A stretch of DNA of 40,982 nt from Verrucomicrobiota bacterium (GTDB lineage Bacteria > Verrucomicrobiota > Verrucomicrobiia > Chthoniobacterales > UBA10450), in NCBI GenBank assembly GCA_003221195.1, contig QHQO01000022.1, positions 1-40,982 of the forward strand, read 5' to 3'. The position numbers and the translations under genes are program-made. A model generated the notes under the pieces. That model worked only from the letters and a program-made list of their open reading frames with translations. It was not told the origin of the DNA and did not search any database. Below, piece by piece: positions 1,653-29,151 of the stretch (the first letter of the stretch is position 1; every line of letters begins with the position of its first letter).

Positions 1653-4600
1653 ATGAAAAAGCAATCCACTTCTCACTCGGCATTCATCAACCTGCGCCTC
1701 TTATTTGGATTCACGCTCTGCTTCCTCGGAGTAGCGCTGGCAATCTTTGCGTCCTTCCCTGTCCGCGGTAGCCTTGGCGAAGGCGGATCACGTCCAGGCG
1801 CAACGAACGCTGAGCGGCCTGCGCCATATATGCCGGTACCCAGTGGCAGAGTCGAGACCGAGGGCGCCGATCTGGGGCGGTTGGAACAGTTCTGGAACGA
1901 TCGTTTGACGTATCCGACAGGGCGCTTTGATCCAGCCTGGGTGCGCGCAGCAGCGATACAACATGCGCGCATGGCCGTGGGCGTTCCTGCGGGAATGCCT
2001 GCCGTGCTGAATCCCTTTAGTCCGCTGGCTTTTAGCACTACCAGTTTCACCGCTCTGGGTCCGCAACCGGAACAGATGACGGGTTGTTCCGGTTGTTTTA
2101 ATTACACGACGACTGAAGGGCGAGTGAACGCGATTGCGGTTGATCCAACCACCACGGTGAATGGCAGCATTGTGGCTTATCTTGGTGCGGTTGGAGGCGG
2201 TGTATGGAAGACGACCAACTGTTGTAGTAATTCCACTACCTGGAGCGTGGTAACCGATGATCCGTTGATTTCCACTACAGCCATCGACAGTGTTACGATT
2301 GATCCCAGCGATCATAACACCGTTTATGCTGGCACCGGCGATCTCAATTTCGGTTCCTTTTCCATGGGTAGCCAGGGTATTCTTAAGTCCACTGATGCAG
2401 GAGCTACATGGACCGTTCTCGGCGCCGACGTTTTTGGCATGGCTTACACAGAGCCTCCGGGTCAGTTTCCACAGTATAACGCTGTTGGCAAAGTTCGTGT
2501 GGACCCAAATAACAGCAGTAAAGTCGTAGCTGGCACGAAACAAGGCCTGTATTTTTCGTACGATGGCGGAGCGAACTGGACCGGCCCCTGTTTCACCAAC
2601 AATTTCGCCACCCAGCGTCAGGACGTTACCGGTCTTGAGCTAAGCGACGTGGGTGGTGGCGATACCCGCATCGTTGCGGCCATCGGCACGCGCGGCTTTG
2701 CTACCACCGTGCAGTACGATCTCAATTTGAACGGTGCCAACGGCCTTTACGGCGCAACGATGCCATCGAGCGGCTGCCCAAGTTTCACTTCAATCGCTAG
2801 CAATGCCAACGGCTTCATCTTCGGCACTGCGGTCACCGGAAGCGCCTATTCGACTGGGGCATCTATGAATGCCGGGAGTGGCTCGCCTTTCGTCAATATC
2901 TCCACCGGCAATCAGTTGGGTCGAATTGACATTGCCGTCGCGCCGAGCAACGCGGACTACATTTATGCGCAGGTGCAATCCATTATCGGTAACAATAACG
3001 GTGGTTGTGGCAGCGCACCTGGCTGCCAGATAGGCGCCTGGGCTACTACCGATGGCGGCGGCTCCTGGTCGTTTATGCAGGGATCTCAGGGCGGCGCGCT
3101 CAGGAACTGCACTGGCGGGCAGGGCGACTATCCCCAAAACTGGTACGACCAGGGAGTGGTTGTTGATCCAAACAATCCCGACCGTGTGTTCTTCGACACG
3201 TTCGAGGTCTGGTTTGCAACGCGCACGGGAACTGTCTGGAACGATACTACGTGCGGTTATTCCTACAGCGGCGCGGCAGGTCCTGTGCATGTGGACCAGC
3301 ACGCTCTGGCCTTCGTGCCCGGCTCGTCCAGCATCTTGCTAATCGGCAACGACGGCGGCGCCCACGGGACGGCAAACGCCAACATCGTAAACCAAAACAC
3401 GGATCCGACGTGGTTCAACATGGACACGGGCTTGAACACAATCGAATTTTACTCGGGCGACATCAGCGGTAATTTTCTTAATGCCGCCTCGCCACAAGCA
3501 AGCGGCGGCGCGCAGGACAACGGTTCCAGCTCAGTTACATTTGCCGGCGCGCCCTCCGGCCCGGTGCTATGGCAGCTGGGAGTGGGTGGAGACGGCTTCT
3601 ATTCACGCATTGATCCTGTGGGCACAGGTTCGAGTCTGCGTTTCTGGCAGGGTAACAACAGCGGTATGGTTCATCGTTGTGTTAGTAACTGCACGAATCA
3701 GAATGCTCCCTGGAGTGGCAACGTCCAGGGCAGCTGGGGCGGCGATACGCAATCGTTCGTTCTGCCATACGACCTGTTCCATGGCGGTATCCCAGGAGGG
3801 GATGACTGTCCAGCAGCCGGCGTCCCCGGCGGCTGCGGTAATCTGGTTGCCGGCACGACCAGGGTGTGGGAGACAACTCATGGCGGCAACGCCTCGTTCA
3901 GCTCATCGGATTGGTACATAACGAACAATCCGACCACGCAGAACATGACCAAGCAGACATTGGGGAACCGTTCGTTTATTAATCAGGTAAAGTACTCGCC
4001 GAAGTATCAGAGCGTTGCCATTGTCGGCACGAACGACGGCAATGCCTGGATAGGCTTTAACCTTGGCACGGGGACGCAAGCGCAGGCGACCTGGGTAAAT
4101 GTCACTGGAAACAATACGGTTCTGCCCAATCGCCCTGTGATGGGCATCGCGCTGGACCCTTCCATGCCAGCCGCAAATCTCCCAGTTGGATACGCAGCGG
4201 TCGGCGGTTTCAATGCTAATACGCCACCGACACCGGGTCACGTGTTCCAGGTAACATGCGCGGCCAATTGCGGCACTTTTACCTGGGCCGATAAGACCGG
4301 CGATCTGCCGGATATTCCGGTGGACTCGATCATCGTTAATCCTAATCAACCGCAACAGGTCTTTGCCGGCACAGACTGGGGCGTTTACTACACCGATGAC
4401 ATCACTGTGGCATCTCCTACCTGGCAGCGCTTCGAGAATGGCCTGCCGCACGCGATGGTATGGGACATGCAAATTGACCGTGGTAGCACTACCTTATCAG
4501 TCTGGACACGCAGTCGCGGTGCCTACGTCTATCCTTTGCCCGGCGCTGGTCCGACGCCGACCCCGACTCCAACACCCACAGCCACGCCCACGGTGACACC

Positions 4601-4703
4601 TACACCTACGTCAACGCCTACCGCTACCCCGACGCCTACTGCTACGCCTAGAGCAACACCGAGGCCGCGGCCAACGCCCCACCCTCGGCCAACGCCGCCG
4701 TAA
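1653..4703 (+). CDS. Secreted BNR/Asp-box beta-propeller protein with Thr-Pro tail
   Basis: 1016 residues. The start MKKQSTSHSAF is followed by a hydrophobic stretch (about residues 14-33), a signal peptide or anchor; the same type of N-terminus opens the convergent 5.3-7.4 kb protein. Asp-box motifs (S/T-x-D-x-G-x-x-W) occur near residues 246 (STDAGATW), 301 (SYDGGANW) and 465 (TTDGGGSW), with further propeller-like segments such as VFAGTDWGVYYTDD near the end. This indicates a sortilin/VPS10- or sialidase-like propeller built from repeated blades. From about residue 965 a Thr-Pro tract leads to the end PRPRPTPHPRPTPP. No sialidase active-site arginine triad is evident, so I make no enzyme claim. 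Likely exported to the cell surface or medium. No clear Shine-Dalgarno sequence precedes the ATG. Confidence 0.8.
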   Translation: MKKQSTSHSAFINLRLLFGFTLCFLGVALAIFASFPVRGSLGEGGSRPGATNAERPAPYMPVPSGRVETEGADLGRLEQFWNDRLTYPTGRFDPAWVRAAAIQHARMAVGVPAGMPAVLNPFSPLAFSTTSFTALGPQPEQMTGCSGCFNYTTTEGRVNAIAVDPTTTVNGSIVAYLGAVGGGVWKTTNCCSNSTTWSVVTDDPLISTTAIDSVTIDPSDHNTVYAGTGDLNFGSFSMGSQGILKSTDAGATWTVLGADVFGMAYTEPPGQFPQYNAVGKVRVDPNNSSKVVAGTKQGLYFSYDGGANWTGPCFTNNFATQRQDVTGLELSDVGGGDTRIVAAIGTRGFATTVQYDLNLNGANGLYGATMPSSGCPSFTSIASNANGFIFGTAVTGSAYSTGASMNAGSGSPFVNISTGNQLGRIDIAVAPSNADYIYAQVQSIIGNNNGGCGSAPGCQIGAWATTDGGGSWSFMQGSQGGALRNCTGGQGDYPQNWYDQGVVVDPNNPDRVFFDTFEVWFATRTGTVWNDTTCGYSYSGAAGPVHVDQHALAFVPGSSSILLIGNDGGAHGTANANIVNQNTDPTWFNMDTGLNTIEFYSGDISGNFLNAASPQASGGAQDNGSSSVTFAGAPSGPVLWQLGVGGDGFYSRIDPVGTGSSLRFWQGNNSGMVHRCVSNCTNQNAPWSGNVQGSWGGDTQSFVLPYDLFHGGIPGGDDCPAAGVPGGCGNLVAGTTRVWETTHGGNASFSSSDWYITNNPTTQNMTKQTLGNRSFINQVKYSPKYQSVAIVGTNDGNAWIGFNLGTGTQAQATWVNVTGNNTVLPNRPVMGIALDPSMPAANLPVGYAAVGGFNANTPPTPGHVFQVTCAANCGTFTWADKTGDLPDIPVDSIIVNPNQPQQVFAGTDWGVYYTDDITVASPTWQRFENGLPHAMVWDMQIDRGSTTLSVWTRSRGAYVYPLPGAGPTPTPTPTPTATPTVTPTPTSTPTATPTPTATPRATPRPRPTPHPRPTPP

Positions 4704-19566: not shown

Positions 19567-20556
19567 TCAGAACGTGCGGATATAAGCTTTCTCGCGCAGG
19601 CTGGCGATCCAGCGTTCCTGAATTTGCTGCGCTTCGTCCTGGATCAGTTTCTTCTCGATATCGGCGCGCGCTTCAGCGAGTGATCTCGTCGTGCCGCCGC
19701 GCTTGTCTTCAACTTTCAAGATGTAGTAATTGCCGGCGTAATCGATGATGTTACTGATTCTGCCGACTGGCATGTTAAAGGCGAACTTTTCCAGCGGCAC
19801 GGCGAGAGTGTTGCGTCCAATCCAGCCCCAGTCGCCGCCGTTGTCTTTCGTGCTGTCCTCGGAATAAATCTGCGCTGTTTGTTCGAATTCAGCGCCGCCG
19901 GCGAGTTTGCCGAGCACTTCTTCGGCCAGCGACTTTTGCGCCTGAGCGTTCCCGGTATCCTTTTGGCCGGAAATCATGATCATCCGCAACTTGATTTCTT
20001 CCTTGCTCGTAAATAGTTCGCGATGCTTCCTGTAGAAATCTTCAATTTTACTAGGCGAAATAATGTAGTTGGTCTTGACGTTGTGACTGCGCATCGCCTG
20101 GACGATGATTCGTTCCATCTCCTTTTCCTTGAACTCGCCCAGCGAGTAATTCTGCGCCTCAAGCGTCTTGACAAACGTATTGCGGTCGCCGCCGAAGCTC
20201 TCCCGGATAATATCGTGCACCCGCTGGTCCACCACGTGATCCGGGATTTGATAGCTTTCCTTTTTGAACGCCTGGATGATAAGCCGTCGATCGATCAGAT
20301 CCTTTAGAGCAAGCTGCCGGACTTCTTTCAGCTTGTTTTCCAGATCCTGACCGCTCAATTGCGACCGCAACAGTTTTTCGCGCGGCGCGGACAACTGCCG
20401 CACTTGTGAGTATGTGATAACGTCGCCATTCACAATTGCAGCCATGCCGTCCACCACCTGAGGTTCCTGGGCGAACGCATCGCAACAAATGGGTAATAGA
20501 ACAAGCGCACAGACCGCCACCAAAATGGCGGTAAATTGACGCACGAAGTTTCTCAT
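19567..20556 (-). CDS. SurA/PpiC-type periplasmic peptidyl-prolyl isomerase
   Basis: 329 residues. A signal peptide (hydrophobic run to CCDAFA) is followed by a SurA-N-type chaperone domain beginning AIVNGDVITYSQVRQL, the hallmark of this family, and helical segments to about residue 190. One parvulin domain follows: IKLRMIMIS, AGGAEFEQTAQIYSEDSTKDNGGDWGWIG, and VGRISNIIDYAGNYYILKVEDKRGGTTRSL. Escherichia coli SurA has two parvulin domains and 428 residues; a single one is common outside the Proteobacteria. Role: folding of exported and outer-membrane proteins. Its ATG overlaps the mfd stop (ATGA), so translation is coupled to mfd, an unusual partnership. I leave the symbol blank because orthology to SurA versus PrsA-like proteins is not settled. 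Confidence 0.87.
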   Translation of the reverse strand: MRNFVRQFTAILVAVCALVLLPICCDAFAQEPQVVDGMAAIVNGDVITYSQVRQLSAPREKLLRSQLSGQDLENKLKEVRQLALKDLIDRRLIIQAFKKESYQIPDHVVDQRVHDIIRESFGGDRNTFVKTLEAQNYSLGEFKEKEMERIIVQAMRSHNVKTNYIISPSKIEDFYRKHRELFTSKEEIKLRMIMISGQKDTGNAQAQKSLAEEVLGKLAGGAEFEQTAQIYSEDSTKDNGGDWGWIGRNTLAVPLEKFAFNMPVGRISNIIDYAGNYYILKVEDKRGGTTRSLAEARADIEKKLIQDEAQQIQERWIASLREKAYIRTF

Positions 20557-23500
20557 AATTTCTTTATCAGTTCCAGAATCTCCCCGAGATGCTGCTCGAT
20601 TTTGGCTTCAACTAAACGAGGGAATTTGCCCGCGACAAGTATAAAATCTCCGCGCCGCGTCAACATCAATTTGCGTTCGCGCACCTCGACGCGGGTTATC
20701 CCTGATTTTGCAGCAGCGAGCTTGATTTCGATGAGGCGAAACAAATTGTCAACCGGCGGTGGGAACGGCCCAAAGCGGTCGCGCCAGTCGCGTCGCAGAC
20801 GGTCTAATTGCTCGTGCGTCGTAACTTCTGCGACGTCCCGGTATGCCCGGATGCGCAAACCGGGATCGCTGACGTAGGTGATTGGAGTGAAGGCTGGAAT
20901 TTTCTCAGGAGAAGGCGGTTCTCCACGCGCCCCGGCGGAAGGCAAAGCTCTGCTCCTTGGTATCGGCGGTGCCACGAATTCCGCTTCATTTGTGGCCACG
21001 AAATCGAGGTTCAAGTCGACATCGAGCCGAAACCGCGGCTTCTTGCCCTTCAGCTGGGCTACAGCTTGTTTGAGCAGCTGACAATACAAATCAAAACCGA
21101 CTGCCACGATGTGGCCGCTTTGAGCTGTGCCTAGCATGCTGCCCGCGCCGCGAATCTCCAGGTCGCGCATGGCAATACGAAAACCTGCACCGAGCGAACT
21201 GTACTGTTTGATCGCGCTGATCCGTTTGCGCGCTGCGGCCACAGTCATCATTTCGCGCGGAAGCAGCAGGTAGGCGTATGCCTTGTGCTCCGCCCGGCCG
21301 ACGCGCCCGCGCAATTGATACAAGTCTGCGAGACCAAACTGGTCCGCCCGGTCAATGATGATGGTGTTTGCATTCGGTATATCGAGACCGCTTTCGATGA
21401 TCGTGGTGCAAACGAGCACGTCGATTTTCCCAGCAATGAATCGCGCCATAACGCCTTCCAGCTCGTCGGCATCCATCTGGCCATGCCCGATCTCGACTCT
21501 CGCTTGTGGACAAAGATCGACGACCCGATCCCGCACCCGCTCAATGCTCGCTACGCGATTGTGCAGAAAGAATACCTGACCCTGCCGTTCGAGCTCCCGA
21601 TCAATCGCTGCGCGAATCAGCCGCTCATCGTAAGCCGACACCACTGTTTCTACTGGCAGGCGGTTGAGCGGCGGGGTCTCGATCGTGGACATATCTTTTA
21701 CGCCAACAAGTGAAAGATAAAGCGTGCGAGGAATCGGGGTGGCCGACAGCGTCAACACATCGACCAGCTTGAAGAGCTCTTTGAATTTTTCCTTGTGCAG
21801 TACTCCGAAGCGTTGCTCCTCATCGATCACGACCAGGCCGAGGTCTTTGAATACGACGTCGCCAGAGATGAGCCGATGAGTGCCAATGACGATGTCGACA
21901 CCACCCTCGCGCAGCAGCCGCAACACTTTTTTCTGCTCCGATTGCGAACGGAAACGGCTGAGCATTTCGATGCGAACTGGGTAGTCGAGCATGCGTTGTC
22001 TGAACACCTCGAAATGCTGTTGAGCCAGGACCGTGGTCGGTGCCAGCACAGCCACTTGTTTTCCATCCATGACTGCTTTAAACGCGGCGCGCACCGCCAC
22101 TTCGGTTTTGCCAAAACCGACGTCGCCACAGATTAACCGGTCCATCGATCGAGGACGTTCCATGTCAATCTTGGTATCGATGATTGCCCTCATTTGGTCC
22201 GGCGTTTCACGAAATGGGAATGAATGTTCGAATTCTGCCTGCCATTTTGTGTCCGGGGCGAATGCGTAGCCCGGATGCAATTGGCGCTCGGCTTGGACCG
22301 CGAGCATTTTCCCGGCGTAATCAAATATGGAAGCGGCCGCTTTTATTTTGGCGCGAGCCCATCTTCCATCGCCGAGTGAGCTGAGTGGCGGCGATTTTTT
22401 CCCCGCGCCAACATACCGGGAAACGAGATACGCCTGCTCGAGTGGAACATAGAGCTTCGCATCATCTGCAAACTCAAGCGCGAGAACTTCCTGCTGCTGT
22501 TGTAGCACAGACATCTTGTCTGTTGGGCCAGCGAGCATCTTGCTTGCTGAATCGGCAGGTGAGACGCGTGCCACCTCTGGCTCCAGCGCGCCCGCCGGTC
22601 GCGCCCTACCAATTTTCACGAGTCCAAGAAATCGCCCGATGCCGTGCTCGAGGTGCACGACGAGGTCGCCCTCGTTAAGCTCACTGAAATCAATCTGCGC
22701 GCGATTGCGGTCCGCACGACGCAAACGCCTGCGCGGATGGGCCGCGAATCGCCCAAATAATTCTGCGGCGGAGAGGACGACGAGATTGGCCGCGGGAAAA
22801 CAAAATCCGCGAGCAAGAATGCCTTCGATAAAATCGCTGCCTTCAATCGCGCCAACCATGATCTCGCGAAATCGCTCGATCTCACCCTCAGTCTGAAAAT
22901 AAATGACGATTTTCGCGTTATTGGCGCGCCACTCTTTTAAACGCTCGACAAACTGTGCGCGTTTCGCCTCGGCCAGCATCAGATCGCCGACCGCAAACTC
23001 GCCGATCTCGCAATCCTGGAATGCACCGCTAAAATCTTCCTGACCAGTCTCAATCCAGCCTTCGCTGATCTGAATGTGTGGAGGGCCGAGCTCCTGCGAG
23101 CCCGGCGTCGCATGAGCTCCGCCCTCCATCCCCGGTTCAAGATCAATTATGAGATCATTTGGAGCGACGTAATCGCGAACTCGACCGCTTTGATCGATCG
23201 AGAAGAGGCGATCTGATCCAACCGCGCCTCCGAGCAAAATATCAACCGAACCCAAATCGCGCACGGAGGTTTGAGTATCGATGTCGAACTCGCGCAGTGA
23301 TTCGATCTGATCGCCGAAGAATTCCAGCCGCAACGGCAATGGCGCTTGCCACGAATAAAGATCGACAATGCCGCCGCGGACGGCGAACTGTCCCCGGGTA
23401 GTGACTTGGGCGGCGCGCTCATAACCGCTGGCGACAAGTCGCTTGAGAAGGTCTTCCATCTGCCCGGTGGCTCCGCGCCGGAGCTGAGTAAAAGCAGAGT

Positions 23501-23951
23501 GGAGTGTGTAACGCCCTGGTGCGGCTTGCTCGAGACTTGCCCGCGTTGCGACTATGGCGCGCGGACCGGTTCCGCGCCCGATTTGCATTAGGACTGCCAG
23601 CCGTTCCGCTACGATTTCCGGATCCGGCAAGACGTTTTCCGCTGCTGCAAACTCAGCTTCCGGAAGGAACAGCGCATCCGACCGCCAGTTAAGCAGGCTT
23701 TCATAGAACAATTCTTGAGAATGAACGCTGGGACAGAGGATCCAAATCGTAGAATCGGCGGTCTGCCGATCATCGGCTGGAGGCCGATGCCACGTGTGCG
23801 CGAGTATGGCGGCCAGAAATGGCTGAGCCGGCTGGATGACGTGTGAAAACTGCACGGGCCAGCGAGCATCTTGTATCGTGTGAAGTTTGCGCGCGATGGG
23901 TTCGCTTGCCGCGACACGTTCCAGAAGCTGTGCACCGATTGGTTTCTGCAC
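20553..23951 (-). CDS. mfd: Transcription-repair coupling factor
   Basis: About 1132 residues from a GTG at 23951 (E. coli Mfd has 1148). An in-frame ATG at 24248 would give 1231 residues but overlaps the DAHP synthase gene by 125 bases and reads through a dispersed repeat, so I reject it; no other ATG, GTG or TTG in frame lies between 24123 and 23951. Order: UvrB-like N-terminal module, RNA-polymerase-interacting domain ([17 protein letters not shown], then [16 protein letters not shown]), SF2 helicase motifs ([42 protein letters not shown] for the DEEQ box, [16 protein letters not shown]), RQLRGRVGR-type motif ([19 protein letters not shown]) and a C-terminal TRCF domain. The interacting domain carries an extra segment coded by hairpin modules (22507-22572). 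It displaces stalled RNA polymerase and recruits UvrA. Confidence 0.93.
22507..22572. repeat. Three TCT/AGA-loop hairpin modules inside mfd
   Basis: Module 1: acaga-CA-TCT-TG-tctgt (22507-22523), perfect 7-bp arms. Module 2: cagcgagca-TCT-tgcttgctg (22529-22549), 8 of 9 pairs. Module 3: ggcaggtg-AGA-cgcgtgcc (22554-22572), 6 of 8 pairs. They encode an extra segment in the RNA-polymerase-interacting domain of Mfd without breaking the frame. An 18-base string (gggccagcgagcatcttg) recurs at 23856-23873. Confidence 0.75.
23856..23873. repeat. Second, degenerate copy of a hairpin-module string in mfd
   Basis: gggccagcgagcatcttg is identical to 22525-22542, but here the right arm no longer pairs. 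It lies about 30 codons after the proposed GTG start of mfd. Confidence 0.6.
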
Positions 23952-23999
23952 CGCAAAGTTTACGCCAAATTTCGCGAGAGTTGTAGCCGGGCCTGCATT

Positions 24000-24050
24000 C
24001 TTGCGCCTTCGGCGATTTGTCTTGGCATCGTCTTCAGGAGAAGCCGATCC
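24000..24050 (-). repeat. Dispersed repeat, copy B, between the DAHP synthase gene and mfd
   Basis: The reverse complement of 24026-24050 equals 1287-1311 (25 of 25), and 24000-24013 equals the reverse complement of 1325-1338. It fills part of the gap between the stop of the DAHP synthase gene (24124) and the GTG of mfd (23951), and its frame is open into mfd, which creates a false N-terminal extension. Confidence 0.75.
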
Positions 24051-24123
24051 ACCTTGCGCAAGGTGGAACGTGTTGTCGTCAACGCGTTGGCAAGCAACGG
24101 TCCGAAGGCTTTCGGGCCGAATT

Positions 24124-25137
24124 TTACAAGGCGCGGCCGATGGCCGTGGCAACTGCGCGGAGACGCGGAATGAGCTCGGCGAAAATTTCCGGCGTGAGCG
24201 CCTGGTTTCCGTCGCTCTTGGCCATCTCGGGAGAGTTGTGCACTTCAATCATGAGCGCGTCCGCACCGGCCGCGACGGCGGCCAGACACATCTGCGGAAC
24301 AAATTCGCGCACACCCAGGGCGTGTGCCGGATCGACGATGACCGGTAGATGCGTTTTAGACTTCAAGATTGGAACAGCGCTCAGATCCAGCGTGTAGCGG
24401 GCTGCCGTCTCAAACGTTCGAATGCCGCGCTCGCAGAGGATTACGTTTGAATTGCCCTCGTTTAGGATGTATTCCGCGCTCATCATCAAATCGTAAATCG
24501 TCGCGCTGAATCCGCGCTTGAGGAGCACGGGAAGTCTGCTGCGCCCTACTTCTTTTAATAGGGAGAAGTTGTGCATGTTGCGGGTCCCAACCTGAAGACA
24601 GTCGGCGTACTTCTCGATCATCGAGAGATCGCGCGGATCCATGACTTCGGTGACAACAGGCAAGCCTGTTTTCGCGCGCGCTTCCGCGAGGAAACGAAGC
24701 CCTTCTTCACGCAACCCTTGAAAACTATATGGCGAAGTGCGCGGCTTAAACGCGCCGCCGCGCAAAATTTTTGCGCCTGATTCTTTCACAATCGCTGCGA
24801 TCGCCTGAATCTGCTCCGGGCTTTCGACCGAACACGGTCCGCAAATCAGAACAACATTCTCATGTTCACCCAGACGCACGTCGCCTACTACGACTGAGGA
24901 AGCGCCGCGAGAGTCGCGCCCTGCAAGTTTGTAAGGTTTCAACACCGGGATGATCGCTTCCACGCCCGCCATCGCGGCAATCGGTTTCTCGCGAAGGAGG
25001 GCCTCAGGTCCGATTACGCCAATGATTACGCGCGACGCGCCGCGGCTGATTTGTGCCTCCAGCCCGAACTCACGTACACGCGTGATGATCCGCTGGATCT
25101 GCTCCTCGGTGGCGTTTGGTTGCGTGATAACGATCAT
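24124..25137 (-). CDS. aroF: 3-deoxy-7-phosphoheptulonate synthase (DAHP synthase, type I beta)
   Basis: 337 residues. It condenses phosphoenolpyruvate and erythrose 4-phosphate, the first step of the shikimate pathway. Residues 1-70 form a ferredoxin-like (ACT-type) regulatory domain ([20 protein letters not shown]), as in the Thermotoga enzyme, which mediates feedback by aromatic amino acids. The catalytic barrel has CGPCSVES (metal Cys), [58 protein letters not shown] (metal His) and [17 protein letters not shown]. Gene symbol usage varies for this subtype. Its stop lies 172 bases upstream of the mfd start on the same strand, with a repeat between. Confidence 0.9.
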
Positions 25138-25823: not shown

Positions 25824-25955
25824 AAGGTTTCCGATGGCGTTCTTAATGCGCAACCTGCGCAAAAAGTCAAGCGAACGGGCTTTGCGCCCGCAAACGGTCG
25901 CGCGCGCTCGCCATCGTGGATTTATTATCTTAGGTACGGTGGTGGCCGGCGTAAG

Positions 25956-26055
25956 TCAGCCATCTTGGCTGATGCGTCACGCAGGCTTCCAGCCTGCGAG
26001 CGTCGGAGATCGACAAGCAAGATGCATGTCGGACGAAACAGGCTAGGAAGCCTGT
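25956..26055. repeat. Array of four small hairpin modules
   Basis: Four hairpins in 100 bases: tcagcca-TCT-tggctga (25956-25972, perfect), cgcaggct-TCC-agcctgcg (25980-25998, perfect), cgacaagca-AGA-tgcatgtcg (26011-26031, 8 of 9) and acaggct-agga-agcctgt (26038-26055, perfect). The array ends one base before the stop codon of the S9 peptidase. The rest of the 25863-26056 gap shows no gene. Confidence 0.75.
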
Positions 26056-26056
26056 G

Positions 26057-28243
26057 TTACTTGCACCATTGATCGACCCAATCGTTCACGGTTTTGTACC
26101 AGAGCTGGCTGTTCTGCGGCTTAAGCACCCAATGACCTTCGTCCGGGAAATACAACATCTTCGACGGCACCTTCAGCACTTGCAGCGTCGTGAATAGATC
26201 GAAACCTTGAGACACATCGAGTCGATAATCGTTTTGTCCGTGCACGACCAGGGTCGGCGTTTTGAAATTCGCCGCGTATTCGTGCGGTGACCATTTCCGG
26301 TAAACATCCCGTTTCTTCCATGGGGGACCGCCGAATTCCCAGTTTGCAAACCAAAGCTCCTCTGTCGTGCCGTACGCCGATTCCGCGTTAAACATGCCAT
26401 CATGCGACACGATGCATTTGAAACGATTGGTGTGGCCTAACAACCAATTGGCCATGTAACCGCCGTAGCTCGCACCCAGCGCCGCTTCGCGGTTTTTGTC
26501 GATGAATGGGAATGTCTTCTCCACGTAATCGAGTCCCTTCATCACGTCGATATACGGTTTGCCGCCCCAATCCCCGCTGATCGAGTCGGTAAACTTCTGT
26601 CCGTAACCGGTCGAGCCGTGGAAATTAATCATCACCACCACGTAATTTGCGGTCGCGGCGAGCAACTCCGCGTTCCAGCGATACGTCCACGAATTTCCCC
26701 ATGCTCCTTGCGGCCCGCCGTGTAGCAAAAACTTCAGCGGATATCTTTTGTTGGGATCAAATCCCGGAGGCTTGATCAAGAATCCCTGCACGTCGTCGTT
26801 GTTCGCGCCTTTGAACGTGAACGACTCCAACGGCTGCATGTCGATCTGTGACAACAACGCGTCATTCATGTGTGTTACAGCAGTCGGATTGGCATCGTGT
26901 CCCGTTGAAAGATCGAGTCGCCAAATCTCATTTGGTGCCTGAATTGACATACGTGTGAAGTACAGAATGCCGTTGTTAATCGTTAGATCATCGGCATGCA
27001 GGCCATCGTTCTCTGCAATTGTTGTCCAATTCGCGCCGACTGAAGTCGAAAAGAGCGGAGAAGTGCCACGTCGCTCTGCCGTGAAGACGATTTCACCTGT
27101 ACGGGACGCCCAGCTGAAGCTTCCGATCGAATATTCAAAGCTTTGAGCGACTTCGCGCGTGTTCCCAGTTTGTCGATCTTGCACTAAGAAGCGCCATTTA
27201 TCGGCTTCGAAGCCGGCGCGCGCTTGCGAACGCCAAGCGATATATTTTCCGTCCGGCGAATAGAGCGGCGTGGTGTCGGCGCCGGGACTGCTGGAAATTT
27301 TCTTTGGCGCGCCGCCGCTAATCGGCACGATGAAAATTTCGTTGTTCGTGCTCGTCGCTTCGACTTCGTCGATGTTGCTCGTGTACGCGACCTCCTGGCC
27401 GTCCGGCGAAATCGCATACATGTCCTGACCGCCTAACGAGAACGGTGGCACGTCGTGATCGCCTGGGGTGAGATCCCGTGGCACAGGCATCTTGCCTGTG
27501 GGGACACCGGGCGTCTCGCCTGGTGTTTGCGATTCGGCAGGCGAGACGCCCGCCTGCCTCACAGACAAGATGTCTGTGCTACGATCTGCACGCGCGTCCC
27601 CACTTAACACAAACAAATGGCTGCGCTTGAATTCGGTGAACGCGTTCCAATGCCGATAGAACAAGCGCGTGAAGATTTTCGCTTTTACTTTGCTTTTCTT
27701 CAGTTCTTCATCGCGCTTCTTGTTGCAGTCGTCGCTTGTCACGCCGGAGCCAGGCGGAGGCGGATTGCAATCCGGATAGACAGCCGACACAAAGACGATG
27801 TTCTTCCCGTCCGGCGACCAGATCGCGCCGTCGGCGCCGGTCGAGATTGATGTGACTTGATGCGGTTTCCCAACGAGCTGCCCCGCTTCCGGATCGAAAT
27901 CGCACATCCAGACTTGCGTCGGATCGGTTGCTTTCGAGGTCCAGATCAAGCGCTTGCCATCAGGCGAAAAACGCGGCCGCTCCTCGTGATTCGGCGTTGG
28001 ATTCAATCGATGCGATTCACCGCCGCTGGCCGGCACGATCCACAAATGCGAAATTTTCGTGTTCGCGGCCAGATCGACATCTTCGCAATCGAACACGACC
28101 CATTTGCCATCCGGTGAAGGCACAGGCGCGCCGACCCGCTTGAGTTTCATCATCTCTTCGAACCTGAATGGATGTTTTTGCGAAGCGGTCTGAGCAAACA
28201 TTGAGCCCGCTAAGAGAACGAAAATGCCAATAAATATTTTCAT
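26057..28243 (-). CDS. S9-family serine peptidase (acylaminoacyl-peptidase / DPP-like), secreted
   Basis: 728 residues. MKIFIGIFVLLAGSMFAQ is a signal peptide, so it acts in the periplasm or outside. Residues about 30-470 form a WD40/PD40-like propeller (VPSPDGKWVVFDCEDVD, RFSPDGKRLIW, IWSPDGKNIVFVSA, YSPDGKYIAWRSQ), and about 480-728 the alpha/beta hydrolase. The triad is visible: Ser592 in GASYGGY, Asp672 in HGQNDYRL and His704 in DEGHWVL. The family removes N-terminal dipeptides or acylated residues from peptides. Residues about 218-255 (STDILSV...TGKMPVP) are not propeller sequence but the translation of a four-hairpin palindromic element. It lies convergently with nothing; its 5' side faces the CDGSH gene. 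Confidence 0.92.
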   Translation of the reverse strand: MKIFIGIFVLLAGSMFAQTASQKHPFRFEEMMKLKRVGAPVPSPDGKWVVFDCEDVDLAANTKISHLWIVPASGGESHRLNPTPNHEERPRFSPDGKRLIWTSKATDPTQVWMCDFDPEAGQLVGKPHQVTSISTGADGAIWSPDGKNIVFVSAVYPDCNPPPPGSGVTSDDCNKKRDEELKKSKVKAKIFTRLFYRHWNAFTEFKRSHLFVLSGDARADRSTDILSVRQAGVSPAESQTPGETPGVPTGKMPVPRDLTPGDHDVPPFSLGGQDMYAISPDGQEVAYTSNIDEVEATSTNNEIFIVPISGGAPKKISSSPGADTTPLYSPDGKYIAWRSQARAGFEADKWRFLVQDRQTGNTREVAQSFEYSIGSFSWASRTGEIVFTAERRGTSPLFSTSVGANWTTIAENDGLHADDLTINNGILYFTRMSIQAPNEIWRLDLSTGHDANPTAVTHMNDALLSQIDMQPLESFTFKGANNDDVQGFLIKPPGFDPNKRYPLKFLLHGGPQGAWGNSWTYRWNAELLAATANYVVVMINFHGSTGYGQKFTDSISGDWGGKPYIDVMKGLDYVEKTFPFIDKNREAALGASYGGYMANWLLGHTNRFKCIVSHDGMFNAESAYGTTEELWFANWEFGGPPWKKRDVYRKWSPHEYAANFKTPTLVVHGQNDYRLDVSQGFDLFTTLQVLKVPSKMLYFPDEGHWVLKPQNSQLWYKTVNDWVDQWCK
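27482..27578. repeat. Composite four-hairpin palindromic element inside the S9 peptidase gene
   Basis: cacaggca-TCT-tgcctgtg (27482-27500, perfect 8-bp arms), caccgggcg-TCT-cgcctggtg (27505-27525, 8 of 9), gcaggcg-AGA-cgcccgc (27537-27553, 6 of 7) and cacagaca-AGA-tgtctgtg (27560-27578, perfect). The outer and inner pairs mirror each other, so the whole is a nested palindrome. It stays in frame within the peptidase. Confidence 0.82.
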
Positions 28244-28355: not shown

Positions 28356-28571
28356 ATGGCTCAAGTAACAATCGAGACAATCAAGAACGGTCCTTACATC
28401 GTGACCGGCGAAGTGGAGTTGATCGACGCACACGGAAACAAATATCCAGTAGAAAAGCGGATGGCCCTCTGTCGCTGTGGCGCATCGACCGAAAAACCGT
28501 TCTGCGACGGCACACATTCCAAGATCGGCTTTCAAGCTGCCGAGAAAGCGGTGCCGGAATCGAAAGAATAG
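28356..28571 (+). CDS. CDGSH-type iron-sulfur protein
   Basis: 71 residues with the complete [2Fe-2S] ligand set [16 protein letters not shown]: Cys39, Cys41, Cys50 and His54, in the mitoNEET/CDGSH pattern CxCxxS/TxxxPxCDGxH. Small stand-alone bacterial members hold a labile cluster and are linked to redox or iron homeostasis; the exact role is unknown. The N-terminal 35 residues ([20 protein letters not shown]) form the short beta strands seen in these proteins. The ORF6N gene starts 13 bases after its stop, so they may be co-transcribed. Confidence 0.9.
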
Positions 28572-28584
28572 GCGCCGGACATTT

Positions 28585-29151
28585 ATGCCATCCGAAGCGC
28601 TCACGGTTCAGGTCGAGCGCTGCATTTATTTAATTCGCGGCGAGAAAGTGATGCTGGACTACGACCTGGCAGTCCTTTATGGCGTACCGACAAAATCGCT
28701 TAACCTCGCGGTAAAACGAAACGCGGAGCGATTTCCGAACGATTTTATGTTTCGGCTTACGCAGGCCGAAGCAGAAGGTTTGAGGTTTCAAATTGGCACC
28801 TCAAATGAGATGGCGGCAAAGCAAACCTCGGGTTTGAGGTTTCAAACTGAAACCTCAAAGAGCCGCCGGGGTGGACGCCGTTACCTGCCATACGCCTTCA
28901 CTGAGCAAGGTGTGGCAATGTTGTCGAGCGTATTACGCAGCCAACGCGCGGTGCAGGTGAACATCGCGATCATGCGCACGTTTGTGCGGTTGCGCGAAAT
29001 GTTGCTTTCGAATGCCGATCTCGCACGTAAACTCGGTGCGCTCGAGAAGAAGTATGATGCTCAATTTAAAGTCGTATTCGACGCAATTCGTGAGCTGATG
29101 ACGCCAACTGAACCGCCAAGACGCCAGATTGGATTCCATTCTCATGATTAA
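28585..29151 (+). CDS. ORF6N (KilA-N-like) domain protein
   Basis: 188 residues from the ATG at 28585; a longer frame from 28477 lies inside the CDGSH gene and is rejected. The ORF6N domain (PF10543) is clear: [53 protein letters not shown] and [19 protein letters not shown] helical C-terminus ([26 protein letters not shown]) follows. The domain is known from phage antirepressor-type DNA-binding proteins and is widespread on chromosomes. Between FRLTQAEAE and YLPYAF the gene contains two copies of a palindrome (28779-28859) that duplicate a GLRFQxxTS segment. The stop overlaps the amidohydrolase start by 8 bases. Confidence 0.88.
28779..28859. repeat. Two palindromes in direct repeat inside the ORF6N gene
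   Basis: tttgaggtttca-aac-tgaaacctcaaa (28833-28859) has perfect 12-bp arms. A degenerate copy, starting with the same tttgaggtttca, lies at 28779-28805. Both are translated in the same frame (GLRFQ...TS). Confidence 0.85.

Follow-up and report, generated by a model that had tools for sequence, protein, structure and literature searches.

The persistence of REP and REPIN populations, and what drives the RAYTs linked to them, is an open question, and most descriptions present RAYTs as domesticated single genes whose benefit is unknown. GTAG REPs, including a GTGG variant and intragenic dimers, have been described in Opitutus terrae, a Verrucomicrobium; they are reported (PMC3733652) to combine a GTAG or GTGG foot with a 6-9 bp stem, to form inverted dimers and to be mostly intergenic, with some dimers lying in frame in genes and adding 20-30 residues. 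The same paper cites the Rickettsia palindromic elements (RPE), palindromic repeats in frame in protein genes, and reports no dedicated transposase for the CGTC class. In Pseudomonas fluorescens, REPINs are inverted REP doublets that form one long hairpin and are tied to a RAYT (PMC3116915), and the biochemically studied REP of S. maltophilia (REPtron Sm, group 3 TnpA-REP) is a 23-nt sequence with GTAG, an 8-bp perfect palindrome and a 3-nt loop (PMC8266576).

The window analysed in this study, a stretch of 40,982 nt from a Verrucomicrobiota bacterium, contains a palindromic element that resembles each of these repeats in the respects just listed, its likeness to RPE being taken from their description. 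Compared with the O. terrae REPs, it belongs to another host and sequence family and carries two hairpins per half; compared with the P. fluorescens REPINs, it occupies about 20 sites rather than hundreds, and the copy studied here is intragenic (PMC3116915). Unlike the S. maltophilia REP, with its supporting biochemistry, it is known from sequence alone. A further difference from the O. terrae case is that the matching RAYT lies in frame in carB, RAYTs within host genes not being mentioned in the available part of PMC3733652.

A REP dimer in the frame of an S9 peptidase

The element and its surroundings comprise the following features, given in window coordinates.

26057..28243, minus strand: S9 family peptidase (Pfam domains PF00326 and PD40, open frame), hosting the element in frame
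27478..27582, no strand assigned: whole REP dimer (REPIN/BIME-like), 105 nt or 35 codons, in frame in the S9 peptidase
27478..27481, plus strand: GTGG foot of the plus-strand REP (GTAG-class tag, GTGG variant), a tag found on most copies
27482..27500, plus strand: hairpin 1 (H1), CACAGGCA-TCT-TGCCTGTG, 8 bp, perfect
27504..27526, plus strand: hairpin 2 (H2, inner), ACACCGGGCG-TCT-CGCCTGGTGT, 10 bp including one G.T
27536..27554, minus strand: hairpin 3 (H3, inner), GGCAGGCG-AGA-CGCCCGCC, 7/8 bp, AGA loop on the plus strand
27560..27578, minus strand: hairpin 4 (H4), CACAGACA-AGA-TGTCTGTG, 8 bp, perfect, inverted partner of H1
27579..27582, minus strand: CTAC on the plus strand, read from the sequence as the GTAG foot of the minus-strand REP
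22502..22570, minus strand: incomplete copy of this REP, in frame within the neighbouring ORF 20553-24248 (Mfd-like)
25951..26060, no strand assigned: degenerate REP-like copy directly downstream of the peptidase gene

Within the 105-nt element, RSTDILSVRQAGVSPAESQTPGETPGVPTGKMPVP, the outer and inner hairpin pairs mirror each other and form a nested palindrome tagged GTGG/CTAC. The first-pass annotation had described four hairpins with TCT or AGA loops in such an arrangement, and all four are present as claimed; the feet had been overlooked, so that the full unit extends from 27478 to 27582 and spans 35 codons. Shuffling, proposed there as a control, does not yield comparable arm-TCT-arm hairpins: perfect TCT/AGA hairpins with arms of at least 7 bp number 4 in the window, whereas 60 dinucleotide shuffles average 0.05 and never exceed 1. 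The element folds as a single long hairpin at -48.8 kcal/mol (shuffles, -21.0 +/- 2.6 kcal/mol; z -10.8). It has the GTRG foot of GTAG REPs, a stem within their 6-9 bp range (8 bp with a 3-nt loop) and, as in REPINs, two inverted REPs that form one large hairpin. These traits mark it as a GTAG-class REP dimer (REPIN), built from GTRG, an 8-bp palindrome and a 3-nt loop. It is a new member of a known and ordinary type, that of intragenic GTAG-REP dimers, which includes those of O. terrae (PMC3733652).

The REP family was surveyed by pattern searches, and in match-bearing stretches, of the 3.1-Mb Udaeobacter-like draft genome (276 contigs, 86.8% complete), from which further RAYTs may be missing. 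The genome-wide copy count suggested by the first-pass annotation gave 26 matches to the 19-nt hairpin pattern and 0 to its reversed control. They correspond to about 20 REP loci, dispersed and mostly outside long frames; in most of them GTAG, GTGG or a similar tetranucleotide borders the first hairpin on its outer side, CTAC or a variant follows the final hairpin, and many copies are degenerate. The annotation had also stated that the arms differ among copies yet still pair around a constant 3-nt loop, and compensatory changes bear this out: the arms covary (score 0.241 versus 0.091 shuffled, with 0 of 500 shuffles as high), most strongly at the sixth pair (column 6/14; C-G 8, G-C 8, A-U 2). 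The idea that these REPs are tuned to stay open in frame was dropped, the consensus being open in 2/3 frames compared with 1.6/3 in shuffled sequence.

The peptidase frame runs uninterrupted across the element (728 aa), in agreement with the earlier view that the repeat extends the protein without stopping its frame; the addition amounts to 35 codons in a length-variable loop. Orthologues, whose comparison had likewise been proposed, do not keep the segment. They retain SHLFV and DLTPGDHD as borders with 6 to about 60 variable residues between them; several are without this REP, some carry the same REP and others hold different palindromic inserts. The insertion place corresponds to a short loop in the solved S9 peptidase structure 8wt1. 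In other species (L119, L120, L127 and L130) the same loop contains other repeat-like segments (e.g., EAGVSPAPS...TRLPLQK), which suggests an insertion-tolerant site. The insert is common to G000, G071 and G080, and its changed arms still pair. Its divergence in G071 and G080 is about that of its flanks, so the peptidase copy is old, and no excision or insertion event at this copy was caught among the orthologues compared.

An ordinary selected peptidase loop, palindromic merely as a side effect of codon or amino-acid repeats, would fit the open frame and the insert shared by these three genomes. However, the unrelated segments or other palindromes of the orthologues, the failure of shuffles to produce such hairpins, and the near-copies of the repeat in intergenic DNA, in the Mfd-like gene and on either side of the carB RAYT described below speak against it, and the dispersed non-coding copies refute it. 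An ordinary loop is accordingly regarded as extremely improbable.

Other repeats were observed in the window. Positions 28777-28859, within the small ORF 28477-29151, contain two 29-nt direct repeats, 90% alike and each palindromic, and long TPTPTP-type repeats occupy positions 1-1300 (ORF 3-1403) and 4534-4672 (C-terminus of ORF 1653-4703). The neighbouring ORF 20553-24248, judging from its motifs, is presumably Mfd.

A matching RAYT inside carB

A profile search of the genome returned 11 Y1_Tnp matches. At one of them, the RAYT at C274:3103-3861, the REP found in the peptidase lies on both sides in opposite orientation, whereas the other RAYT loci of the genome that were examined are flanked by different hairpins or by none of this kind. 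This RAYT is in frame inside a 1348-aa CarB in which all CarB domains are present.

L046:1306-5352, minus strand: CarB containing, in frame, a complete RAYT between two inverted REPs; REP-RAYT-REP stretch of 253 residues

The stretch splits the CarB oligomerisation domain at a loop corresponding to E. coli residues 475-489. No second CPSase_L_D3 match was detected in the draft genome, so that the RAYT-bearing carB is the only one found. In the structure model, the CarB-RAYT segment consists of two well-predicted domains joined by low-confidence, REP-encoded stretches; the top match of the first is TnpA-REP bound to a REP hairpin (4er8; Z 13.9, 134 residues, rmsd 2.5), and the second matches the CPS oligomerisation domain (Z 9.7). 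The HUH motif PNHVH and the Tyr of DYI..NP, both aligned to 4er8, are near-invariant among 26 carB RAYTs. Since dN/dS is low both in the RAYT inserts (0.12-0.25 in nine of ten pairs, the tenth being saturated) and in the CarB flanks (0.04-0.07), both parts are maintained under purifying selection.

RAYTs usually, though not by definition, are genes with a start and a stop of their own, and the carB RAYT is not: an ATG before the RAYT core is absent from 13 of the 27 carB RAYTs, and an own stop codon from all 27. Because the RAYT fold and catalytic residues are present, it is a variant RAYT; because no member has a stop and 13 have no ATG, it is probably produced solely as a segment of CarB, with internal GTG or TTG starts possible.

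The first-pass annotation had raised the possibility of a structured mobile repeat moved by a transposase in trans, and the RAYT of the same genome, bounded by inverted copies of the same REP, supports it well. The proposed mechanism is that the hairpins and their GTRG feet would be recognised in single-stranded DNA by an HUH/Y1 transposase (RAYT, TnpA-REP) acting in trans, which would cut and rejoin at the feet; CACAGGCATCTTGCCTGTG is the single-stranded REP sequence expected as the substrate of the carB RAYT. The REP dimer would represent a REP-RAYT-REP unit that lacks its transposase gene and consists of the inverted ends alone, and the peptidase copy would have survived as an insert of 3n length, open in the frame used, rich in Pro, Gly, Ala and Thr, and placed in a tolerant loop. 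The likeliest enzyme for the peptidase REP would be the RAYT made as a domain of CarB, because the same REP bounds it and the other RAYTs examined differ. We infer that the RAYT cleaves and moves REPs in trans, that it is expressed fused to CarB and that CarB still works. As an overall explanation, a REPIN mobilised in trans, most likely by the carB-borne RAYT, is given a probability of about 0.85. Against it stands the view that RAYTs elsewhere are domesticated and poorly mobile (PMC3733652). The other suggestion of the annotation, that the element acts as an RNA hairpin unit, is possible but not needed.

REP types, site occupancy and movement of carB RAYTs

Across 83 genomes of the family, complete carB frames are mostly of two lengths, about 1070-1110 and 1320-1390 residues. 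The REPs at the ends of the carB RAYT vary between genomes, and the carB type predicts which REP is frequent genome-wide, for type B with p=4e-7 (2e-5 with own copies removed) and for type A with p=0.001 (0.016 with own copies removed). Type A was considered as a clean marker of the carB RAYT and dropped, being only moderately specific; since type A REPs also exist where carB holds no RAYT, the element may have been moved by other RAYTs or by earlier ones.

These data bear on whether the REP dimer is now immobile, a vertically inherited relic of past RAYT activity that perhaps serves as an RNA hairpin or mRNA-stability element. Such a relic would agree with the sharing of the peptidase copy by G000, G071 and G080, the many degenerate copies and the persistence of REPs in genomes without a carB RAYT. 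It is nevertheless rather unlikely, given that the matching RAYT retains its catalytic residues under purifying selection and that REP type tracks RAYT type between genomes.

In the 59 genomes with a readable carB site, a RAYT is present in 27, the site is empty in 20, and 12 have other lengths, several of which are single REP hairpins, i.e., REP scars. In G071, the RAYT has been deleted in frame with both REPs kept in frame and CarB flanks that are 99% identical, and such loss is a plausible route to a REPIN. The insertion site is identical in all. A carB RAYT at the same site also occurs in Luteolibacter, which belongs to a different order, and, by sequence, in a genome from a different family of the class (L215); the RAYT of the latter was recognised by BLAST similarity and its HUH motif, the Pfam scan of L215 giving no Y1_Tnp match. 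The nearest named genome in the RAYT search was an uncultured Candidatus Udaeobacter.

In the RAYT tree, sequences group by host gene and site (13 changes versus 31.7 shuffled). A single ancestral insertion into carB, inherited vertically with many losses and no repeated arrival, would account for the grouping together of 26 of the 27 carB RAYTs, for the divergence of the nearest RAYT pairs roughly in step with CarB and for the scars, which show that loss happens. However, RAYT identity is not correlated with CarB identity across 351 pairs (Mantel r 0.09, p 0.17); AU tests with the CarB data, based on quick trees without a mixture model and on clades picked after viewing the RAYT tree, reject five of six RAYT clades, with {G064,G066} retained (p 0.06); and the exception among the 27, G016, holds an unrelated RAYT type at the same carB site. 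The trees of the carB-borne RAYTs and of CarB itself disagree, and purely vertical inheritance is judged improbable.

RAYT-CarB alleles might instead have spread by homologous recombination between carB genes, without homing by the transposase. The CarB flanks are conserved enough to recombine and the site is always identical, but the RAYTs in many other genes would be left unexplained, and MqnA-borne RAYTs (L242, L243) nest among the carB RAYTs, a position that implies transfer between genes and likely reflects a move from one host gene to another. Recombination between alleles is accordingly held to be possible, if doubtful.

RAYTs as passengers in conserved proteins

Two further embedded RAYTs were found in the genome of the window.

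L047:818-4288, plus strand: AlaS with an in-frame RAYT, the only AlaS found in this genome
L015:1069-2784, minus strand: Sua5/YrdC protein with an in-frame RAYT

Of 79 top-ranking RAYT relatives from named genomes, 40 sit within long frames that continue on both sides and 28 are free-standing, in frames of 206-293 residues; the remaining 11 are partial. Pfam host domains occur together with Y1_Tnp in RecG, MetH, AlaS, Sua5, ValS, RarA/MgsA, LeuS, HsdR, PriA, MqnA, adenosine deaminase, diphosphomevalonate decarboxylase, XseA and others. In GcpE (L226, a one-contig genome) the host domain is split and the RAYT was called from BLAST similarity and the HUH motif, the Pfam scan giving no Y1_Tnp match. 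Two cases are counted as unsure: ThrS (L162), with no Y1_Tnp match above threshold, and ClpB (L164), which ends at a contig edge. That the pattern recurs in so many independent assemblies makes an assembly fault unlikely. HsdR proteins of several phyla (L261, L262, L266, L268, L275, L288, L295) carry closely related RAYTs, at a site that looks identical where both sides are present, and this distribution may reflect transfer of whole hsdR genes.

Like inteins, such RAYTs are passenger enzymes that occupy one fixed position in a conserved essential gene, are patchy in distribution and are apparently mobile between alleles, and their gene-and-site-specific lineages, which would spread between those alleles, follow the pattern known from inteins. 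Intein-like passengers without protein splicing are known as the WHO elements of yeasts (PMC7282813). The RAYT differs from inteins and WHO elements in being an HUH/Y1 transposase, not a homing endonuclease, and from inteins in having no splicing domain: scanned with Pfam, the hosts examined, CarB, AlaS, RecG and MetH among them, showed their own domains and mostly Y1_Tnp, but no Hint domain. In contrast to an intein, the insert remains in the protein, as far as its sequence tells.

These observations favour, on balance, the broader reading that in Verrucomicrobiota and neighbours RAYTs live as in-frame, stop-less and apparently start-less passengers at fixed sites of conserved housekeeping proteins (CarB, AlaS, Sua5, RecG, MetH, LeuS, ValS, PriA, XseA, MqnA and others), that they would be host-expressed and unspliced, enter identical sites anew in separate lineages and sustain REP/REPIN populations in trans, a mode of life like that of inteins but based on a transposase. 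Searches of the open PMC literature, which covers few subscription journals, returned no description of RAYTs within host genes, and this absence is weak evidence. Within that scope, a RAYT in frame inside the only carB of a genome, recurring across the phylum, was not found described before, and the surprising part is the location of the transposase.

For genome annotation, a transposase match inside carB, alaS, recG or metH need not mean a broken gene. The more than a dozen host proteins constitute a natural set that tolerates insertion of a domain of roughly 200 residues, and the embedded RAYTs would be a splicing-free counterpart of inteins. A transposase inside essential enzymes would be hard to lose cleanly and would probably be expressed with its host gene, which would explain, in a testable manner, how RAYTs and their REPs persist.
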